Assembly: GCA_022510605.1 (NCBI GenBank)
Contig: JAFLTB010000003.1
Location: 1-64,000 of the forward strand
Direction of reading: 5' to 3'
Length of the DNA: 64,000 bases
From: Lachnospiraceae bacterium
GTDB lineage: Bacteria > Bacillota > Clostridia > Lachnospirales > Lachnospiraceae
The position numbers were made by a program, and so were the translations under genes. The notes beneath the pieces were generated by a model, which saw nothing but the letters and a program-made list of their open reading frames with translations, was not told where the DNA came from and ran no database searches. Below are positions 34,943 to 36,759 of this stretch, piece after piece; within the stretch, counting starts at the first letter, position 1; each line of letters opens with the position of its first letter.

Positions 34943-35863
34943 TCAGGAGTCCTTCCCAGAAGCCTCCTTCATTCTCCGATAGAAGGTGGAGCGGGAGGCA
35001 ATCCCCAGCCGCTCCATCGCCTGTTTTTCACTTATTTTTTTGGCATGAAACAGCTCCGCTACCCGGTGCAGACGGCCCGCATCCACCGAAATCTTCTTCC
35101 GCCCCCGGTAGGCTCCCTGCCTCTTCGCCTTCTCTATACCAGTCTGGCGATGCTGTCTCTCTAACAGCTTCGCCGCATAATACTGCTGGCGCAATACCAT
35201 CATCACACTATCCCGATTCTCCCCATCAATCCGCAGTCCCTCCTTTTCAAAGGAAACCACTGCCCCTGTCCCCAGCAAACGCAAAAGCTTCTCTGTATAT
35301 ACCGCCGGATTCCGGGAAATACTGCTCTGGCTGTCAATCATCACCTGGTCGCCCCGCTGTAACTGCTCCACACAGTCCTTTGCGCTCTCGTAGGATAACT
35401 CCACAGACTTCTCCCGGCAGCGCTCCACAATCAGATTGTCGTTGCCACAGACAAGAGAGGTGCGAATCAGCCATTCAAAACGGTCATAATAATCCAGGCC
35501 CACCGACTCCATCAGTTCCCACAAATCCTCCCGGTTTTTTGAAGGACTTCTCTCGGTGATAAAGACTGGCTGCATATTGACCCGATAATACTTCTCTAAC
35601 CGCAGCTCCATGGAAATTCCTGGAATCCCCTGAAAGACTGAGGTATCCAGCCCGTCTATCACATCCCAGTAGGGGGTAATAATGTACTGGTATTCCTCAT
35701 TGAAAAAATGCTGGTACTCAATCTGTCCCACACAATACTTCTCTCCATACCGCCCTACAGCCTTGATAATTCCCGCATTGACATAATCCGGCTGGCCGGG
35801 TAAAGGGGTTGTATATTCATTTAACGGCTCATAATCCCGGTTAATTGGCTTCATCTGCTTCAT
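34943..35863 (-). CDS. Two-part protein: unknown N-terminal domain plus serine-recombinase-like core remnant and C-terminal HTH
   Basis: C-term LLERQHRQTGIEKAKRQGAYRGRKKISVDAG...ISEKQAMERLGIASRSTFYRRMKE resembles resolvase E-helix plus HTH; no clear N-terminal YxRxS catalytic motif. Confidence 0.6.
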   Translation of the reverse strand: MKQMKPINRDYEPLNEYTTPLPGQPDYVNAGIIKAVGRYGEKYCVGQIEYQHFFNEEYQYIITPYWDVIDGLDTSVFQGIPGISMELRLEKYYRVNMQPVFITERSPSKNREDLWELMESVGLDYYDRFEWLIRTSLVCGNDNLIVERCREKSVELSYESAKDCVEQLQRGDQVMIDSQSSISRNPAVYTEKLLRLLGTGAVVSFEKEGLRIDGENRDSVMMVLRQQYYAAKLLERQHRQTGIEKAKRQGAYRGRKKISVDAGRLHRVAELFHAKKISEKQAMERLGIASRSTFYRRMKEASGKDS

Positions 35864-36708
35864 CTCCTCTCCAACGGCTCACGAATCAGCCTGGTATAAC
35901 GCATGGTAAGCATCGTGATTAAAAATTCCTTTCGCACATCGCTCATCTGCTCAATGCTCTCCACAAGACTGCAGACTGCCTCCATGTCAATCCGCTCTGC
36001 CATCCGCTCCAGTGCACGGTCACAGGCCGGAAACCGACGGCTTCGGATAACCTCATAATAGGAACTCTTCTGTCCATCCAGCCGAATCTGGGAAGTGGGG
36101 AACTGGTAAATCCGCTTCTCCATCTCTGCCTGGGAGCGAAGTATCCCCTGACACTGTTCATCGTTTGCAAGCTTGGGAAAGAGACAGGAACCATTGTCAA
36201 ACACCGGCGCCAGGCGATACCTGTCCTGGCTCTTCAGAAAGCCCCAGTTGCTTCCGTGGCGGTCAAAGTTCCCGAGAAAGGCATCCATAATATAAATATC
36301 CCAGAATGCATCCACCGTCTCCTCCACACGGGTCAGTTTACGGTTTTCCTTCAGCATAGCTGTAATATCTGAATAACTGTAGGTTACCCGCTCCCTGTCT
36401 ATATCCAGTGAACTGTCTCCCACATCATTAAAGGGAACAAAGGTCTCGCTCTCCGAAGTAAAATCCTTGAGTACTACAACCTCCTCACCCCGGTAGATGC
36501 CAAGCCATGTCTCCTGGGTTTCAATACCCACTGTCTCAAAAATATGACAGCCCAGATATTCAGAAATGTGATTGCAGCTCTGTCCCGCCTCTGAATTTTT
36601 CCGAAACTTGATAATATAGTTCTCCCCCTTGTACTGAATGCCCAGCTTGCGCTCCGCCCCTGTGTAAAACCGGCCACTTGGGACACATCTCGAAAAATCC
36701 TTAATCAT
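35860..36708 (-). CDS. HipA/CtkA-like (PI3/4K-fold) protein kinase
   Basis: YIIKFRKN, FLGNFDRHGSNWGFL catalytic motif, LAPVFDNGSCLFP metal-binding motif; ATGA overlap with the next gene. Confidence 0.8.
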   Translation of the reverse strand: MIKDFSRCVPSGRFYTGAERKLGIQYKGENYIIKFRKNSEAGQSCNHISEYLGCHIFETVGIETQETWLGIYRGEEVVVLKDFTSESETFVPFNDVGDSSLDIDRERVTYSYSDITAMLKENRKLTRVEETVDAFWDIYIMDAFLGNFDRHGSNWGFLKSQDRYRLAPVFDNGSCLFPKLANDEQCQGILRSQAEMEKRIYQFPTSQIRLDGQKSSYYEVIRSRRFPACDRALERMAERIDMEAVCSLVESIEQMSDVRKEFLITMLTMRYTRLIREPLERR

Positions 36709-36726
36709 AGTGTTCCACTCCTTTAC

Positions 36727-36759
36727 CAGTATCATACTGTAAAATACAAAGTGTGTCAA
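36727..36759 (-). promoter_or_regulatory. Promoter of the kinase operon with palindrome over the -10
   Basis: TTGACA (36759-36754), 17-bp spacer, TATGAT (36736-36731); perfect CAGTAT-G-ATACTG palindrome 36727-36739. Confidence 0.65.

Follow-up and report, generated by a model that had tools for sequence, protein, structure and literature searches.

Identification of a HipA/CtkA-type kinase gene and its partner gene

The DNA analysed here (the window) is a stretch of 64,000 nucleotides from a Lachnospiraceae genome. Its minus strand carries a hipM-like kinase gene (35860–36708) followed by a hipP-like partner gene (34943–35863), whose start codon lies in an ATGA overlapping the kinase stop codon. 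This two-gene arrangement had been proposed in the initial annotation, and both open reading frames were confirmed. For the kinase gene, we chose the ATG start that aligned with its homologues (36708); the ORF list gives a longer version with a TTG start (36759). An AAAGGAG ribosome-binding site was located at 36718–36724. The module is flanked by valS (36948–39791) on one side and by a small ORF and a TPR-protein gene (33237–34892) on the other. A T-box leader (39708–39942, minus strand; RF00230, 110 bits) lies upstream of valS, which precedes the module.

The product of the kinase gene is a Ser/Thr kinase of the HipA/CtkA type, 282 aa long, that lacks the HipA N-subdomain-1. The HipA_C match (E 6.7e-17) began at residue 16, CtkA (3akj) was the sole PDB match (E 9e-51), and the PADLOC profile PDC-M03A was matched with an E value of 7.4e-30, in agreement with the HipA/CtkA-like kinase carrying a VFDNGSC motif that had been recognized earlier. 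The YTGAERK loop, the IIKF lysine, the catalytic GNFDRHGSNWG, and the metal-binding VFDNGS were all intact, and the dN/dS of about 0.1 against L149 and L150 indicates purifying selection. In the kinase tree, most lineages kept all catalytic residues. Judging from these motifs, HipM is probably an active short HipA-like Ser/Thr kinase.

The C-terminal half of the partner derives from a serine recombinase

The partner is a protein of 306 aa, the second half of which had been described as recombinase-like, with an E-helix and a helix-turn-helix (HTH) but no catalytic motif. This description held. A profile of 28 partner relatives matched the Tn552, gamma-delta, and Tn3 resolvases in the PDB with E values of 6.9e-6 to 5e-4. 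In the AlphaFold2 model of the partner (pLDDT 94), the C-terminal half was matched to Tn3 resolvase by Foldseek (E 8.9e-7). Alignments to the gamma-delta and Tn3 resolvases placed a remnant of the catalytic core, with the resolvase fold, at about aa 155–216 (35216–35401). Model and conservation placed a long E-helix, a GRKK arm, and a resolvase-type HTH at aa 217–301 (34961–35215), with a helix at 217–248 followed by the three helices of the HTH, in which SRSTFYRR corresponds to ARSTVYKV of gamma-delta.

The partner aligns from near resolvase residue 54–66, indicating that the Ser10 strand is missing. Asp67 and Arg68 of resolvase correspond to Ser180 and Ser181 in the window partner and are variable in relatives, and Arg71 corresponds to Arg184, which is unconserved among relatives. 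The E-helix, the GRKK arm, and the HTH are conserved, whereas the catalytic-core remnant is poorly conserved; the partner gene as a whole is under purifying selection (dN/dS 0.08–0.11). Since the Ser10 strand and Asp67/Arg68 were lost while the E-helix, arm, and HTH were kept, the C-terminal half is predicted to be a DNA binder rather than a recombinase. The structure search thus gave a resolvase fold without the catalytic residues of an ordinary active serine recombinase. An active recombinase, or a part of a mobile element, is highly implausible despite the likeness in fold and sequence and was rejected: besides the residues lost, there is a single operator copy and no multi-site res, and the position between valS and the TPR-protein gene is fixed within the genus. 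The core idea of the initial annotation was upheld: the gene downstream of the HipA-like kinase encodes a co-opted dead recombinase joined to a kinase-associated domain.

The N-terminal domain of the partner is probably HipS-like

The N-terminal domain (aa about 25–150, 35414–35791) is the best-conserved part of the partner, with a dN/dS of 0.04. It also occurs alone, as partners of 131–136 aa beside related kinases (L048, L063, L067, and L069), and BLAST linked these to the domain of the fusion with E values of about 1e-16. Weak Couple_hipA matches were found for the stand-alone partners L067 and L069 (E 0.0026–0.014), and in hhalign their alignment matched a reference alignment built from HipS and the N-domains of HipA (P 3e-4); this reference is sound, as its member L107 matches solved HipS (E 1e-16). 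HipN-type partners (L074, L076, and L077), which carry a HIRAN domain, had Couple_hipA matches with E values of 0.0006–0.002 and matched the HipS/HipA alignment with a P of 1.7e-4 and the HipP N-domain with a P of 0.001. The reversed controls were worse (P 0.08–0.55). A direct hhalign comparison of the HipP N-domain with HipS/HipA-N was not significant (P 0.08), and a Foldseek search with this domain by itself returned neither a HipA nor a HipS structure. The direct tests did not bear out a HipS fold; on the chain of weak profile matches, the domain is probably similar to HipS or the HipA N-subdomain-1.

PDC-M03B was matched by 16 of the 28 members of the partner set, and by the window partner weakly and only over residues 41–137. 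The true PDC-M03B partners (L074, L076, and L077) match this profile from end to end and contain HIRAN. Membership of the window module in PDC-M03 was rejected because the match of the partner is confined to its N-domain and no HIRAN is present, although the kinase does match PDC-M03A. A DUF3037-type partner, as in HipAD, was also rejected, as there was no DUF3037 match.

Conservation and distribution of the gene pair

The two genes form a genuine and conserved pair. Each of the intact fusion homologues that were examined adjoins the 3' end of a CtkA-like kinase gene, with an ATGA overlap in many cases. The neighborhood survey found this arrangement in more than 20 genomes, confirming the suspected pairing, and its carriers were Lachnospiraceae, other clostridia, Coriobacteriia, a Phascolarctobacterium MAG, and a Kiritimatiellae MAG. 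The N-domain was present in 11 of 397 genomes in the family survey, mostly as fusions, and in an evenly drawn sample of the phylum only the window's own genome contained it (1 of 399). In the tree, the kinases that have fusion partners fell into a single group (support 92/88, one change; none of 500 shuffles was as low). No record in the phage collection contained the full fusion. As for the flanking gene, valS was rejected as a conserved neighbor or target, since it adjoins the module in the window's genus alone and the neighbors elsewhere are unrelated.

A conserved inverted repeat overlaps the -35 element

The sigma-70-type promoter TTGACA-N17-TATGAT is present at 36731–36759, as had been read at first. 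The promoter had been regarded as apparently autoregulated on account of a perfect CAGTAT-G-ATACTG palindrome over the -10 element. The palindrome exists (CAGTATGATACTG, 36727–36739), but it is probably incidental and was rejected as the operator: the window contains 34 perfect 6-1-6 palindromes, and this one is not conserved in the closest relatives, L031–L033. Autoregulation remains the apparent mode, but the relevant site is an inverted repeat over the -35 element, which was first spotted by eye in the promoter comparison. This conserved putative operator, GTATCAAAATAAAAATAACTCTATTGACAC (36753–36782), contains a 28 bp inverted repeat, TATCAA-N16-TTGACA, with the outer TATC and GACA 28 bp apart, and the -35 TTGACA is the inner part of its right half-site. 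Resolvases bind TGTC-type half-sites about 28 bp apart.

Under a strict rule (GTRTCAA..TTGAYAC, 28–32 bp, at most one mismatch), the operator was found in 15 of 27 fusion modules and in none of 24 other CtkA-like kinase genes, and dinucleotide shuffles gave an expectation of 0.04. We also used a set of 26 HTH-bearing modules, which leaves out six same-genus pseudokinase modules and includes one locus (L046) that ends before the partner gene. The strict operator was present in 19 of these and missing from the other seven, against 0 of the 24 controls (p 2e-8, although such p-values overstate independence because the modules are related to each other). With a looser rule chosen after inspection, the counts were 22 of 26 and 1 of 24. 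The cleanest test came from held-out loci fetched later, where the operator was found in four of six fusions and in none of three N-domain-only modules, one of which (L187) nearly duplicates control L048. For the operator assignment, L034 (1054–1770) amounts to a natural experiment: its HipP ends before the E-helix and HTH, in mid-contig, and the left operator half-site is also lost. In G000, G308, and G328, the perfect operator occurred in one copy per genome, each time at the module promoter. The presence of the operator follows that of an HTH-bearing partner, and this conserved predicted site supports autoregulation.

A pseudokinase lineage at the same chromosomal position

The interval between valS and the TPR-protein gene was compared in 30 genomes of the genus. 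It held hipMP in nine and neither hipMP nor any other insert in 13. Six genomes (L151–L156) had a response regulator and a PocR-type hybrid histidine kinase at the hipMP position, the domains of which were identified in one of them, and two had other genes. In six of the nine hipMP loci, the catalytic residues of the kinase were lost, leaving GNGERGG-type motifs with PVLGNDS, or GNPDRRE with VFNND in L163. The degenerate hipM genes lie at 313–1161 in L157, 255–1103 in L158, 250–1098 in L160, and 213–1061 in L161 (as fetched), and on the reverse complement in L162 and L163. HipP kept a near-intact HTH in all six, and the operator was absent from all of them. In L163, hipM begins right after the valS stop codon, and five of the six loci share a conserved hairpin (TGCCAGAATTC...GGATTCTGGCA) between valS and hipM.

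The dN/dS of the degenerate kinase, 0.09–0.15 within L157–L162, indicates a maintained pseudokinase and not a decaying gene. Since the HTH was kept while the operator and kinase catalysis were lost in six genomes, toxin-antitoxin function is not the sole selected property. This lineage, at the same chromosomal position, raises the question of what the pair does without phosphorylation. A HipM with lost catalytic residues (GNSSRSTYSWG, VFNND) was also observed in L059 (4001–4849) and L003, where the operator and the fusion partner were kept.

Relation to known systems

By its description, the module fits hipMP, which was predicted from sequence as a HipM kinase whose gene is followed by that of HipP, a putative antitoxin resembling gamma-delta resolvase (Gerdes et al. 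2021, PMC8262856). The layout, regarded as unusual in the initial annotation, has thus been known since 2021. Both have a short HipA-homologous kinase without N-subdomain-1, followed by the gene for a putative autoregulating antitoxin related to gamma-delta resolvase; neutralization of the kinase by HipP and autoregulation were postulated by the hipMP authors (PMC8262856). The operator, the pseudokinase lineage, the division of HipP into domains with a putative HipS-like part, and the missing catalytic residues of its recombinase half were found neither in the hipMP text (PMC8262856) nor in literature searches and are the additions made here. Before, hipMP had been predicted in a single paragraph, with no operator known and no part of the antitoxin delimited. 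The -35 site and the domain split make it testable at the bench with one DNA fragment, one repressor, and one candidate neutralizing domain. The module also represents a case of a site-specific recombinase that lost catalysis and was retained as a putative transcription repressor in a kinase module.

The hipBST system comprises the HipS antitoxin, the HipT kinase, and the HipB repressor. Its kinase likewise has no N-subdomain-1, and this subdomain is presumably substituted by a small domain on a separate protein, which would restrain the kinase. However, in the window the putative HipS-like domain and the DNA-binding domain belong to one protein encoded after the kinase, and the DNA binder is resolvase-derived, whereas HipB is of the Xre type. 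In hipIN, the HipI kinase is paired with HipN, which consists of a HipS-like domain plus HIRAN. This system (PADLOC PDC-M03) has a related kinase and a downstream partner with a related N-domain, but the HipN C-terminus is HIRAN in place of a resolvase-type DNA-binding domain. CtkA of Helicobacter pylori, the closest solved kinase structure, has been described as a pro-inflammatory kinase that is translocated and whose gene lies in an ICE, with no fused resolvase partner noted (PMC5536186). The Tn3-family TnpR acting at res resembles HipP in its E-helix, GRK arm, and HTH, in an inverted-repeat site with an outer spacing of about 28 bp, and in autorepression, which is documented for TnpR (PMC7157771) and proposed for HipP; HipP differs in its missing catalytic residues, its single site, and its fused kinase-associated domain. 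Unlike hipBA, the module has no upstream Xre-type HTH antitoxin: the upstream gene is valS, and the DNA binder is of the resolvase type and encoded downstream.

Proposed mechanism and alternative explanations

HipA and HipT phosphorylate aminoacyl-tRNA synthetases. By analogy with these two kinases, HipM would likely inhibit a cell component. The N-domain of HipP, probably HipS-like, would bind and restrain the kinase, substituting for its missing N-subdomain-1; HipS is a kinase inhibitor (PMC10627512). The C-terminal half, a recombinase without its catalytic residues, would have been retained solely as a dimeric DNA binder. The HipP dimer, probably with the kinase attached, would bind the resolvase-type 28 bp inverted repeat over its own -35 element and block RNA polymerase, in the way that Tn3 TnpR shuts off its promoter at res, so that removal of HipP would free the kinase and open the promoter. 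We consider such a self-repressing hipMP-type kinase module with a two-part partner to be the best explanation and a fairly probable one. The module is most likely an autorepressed toxin-antitoxin-like kinase pair, a function that we infer.

Two other explanations were weighed. The pair might be a phospho-signaling or transcription-control module without toxicity, with HipP as the regulator and either HipP itself or a metabolic target as the substrate of the kinase. The six loci that keep a degenerate HipM with a near-intact HipP HTH (L157, L158, and L160–L163), under selection in those measured (within L157–L162), point in this direction, as a maintained degenerate kinase implies a use that needs no catalysis. 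However, most lineages keep all catalytic residues, the HipA/HipT kinases characterized so far that have dedicated antitoxins act as toxins (PMC8262856, PMC10627512), and the patchy, horizontally scattered distribution is typical of toxin-antitoxin and defense genes, which makes a module free of toxicity unlikely. The same patchiness would suit abortive infection against phages. The kinase would then be released when infection removes HipP, a reading that agrees with the main explanation and supplies it with a trigger. The kinase matches the PADLOC candidate PDC-M03A (E 7e-30) and the partner N-domain matches PDC-M03B, and HipAD (DS-6), a distinct HipA-like system made up of two genes, confers phage protection (PMC13092281). 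But PDC-M03 is itself a candidate system, the locus lies between housekeeping genes with no visible defense island, and the phage collection has no record of the full fusion; a defense role is conceivable, though we lean against it.

Returning to the self-repressing toxin-antitoxin-like module, its history in the genus allows a further, tentative suggestion, to which we give less than even weight. HipP may be a recombinase that lost its activity and took on the roles of kinase antitoxin and repressor, and in one same-genus lineage the module may have been domesticated further. There, a catalytically dead HipM and a HipP without operator, directly after valS and kept by selection, would perhaps serve as a regulator expressed with the synthetase, whose gene has a T-box leader in the window.

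CtkA-like kinases were also observed in other surroundings. In L053–L058, L060–L062, L066, and L079, a small conserved protein (about 71–75 aa) is encoded downstream of the kinase; it had no Pfam match in the one scanned and is perhaps another type of partner. In Robinsoniella peoriensis (L048:2665–5474), the CtkA-like kinase, whose own partner is an N-domain only, is immediately preceded by an HTH gene and a gene of apparent HipA type. A CtkA-like kinase of 39% identity was found in L106 (MT839556), a record labeled Bacteriophage sp.; the neighboring ORFs resemble VirB4-type ATPase and relaxase genes, so this record may be an ICE fragment.
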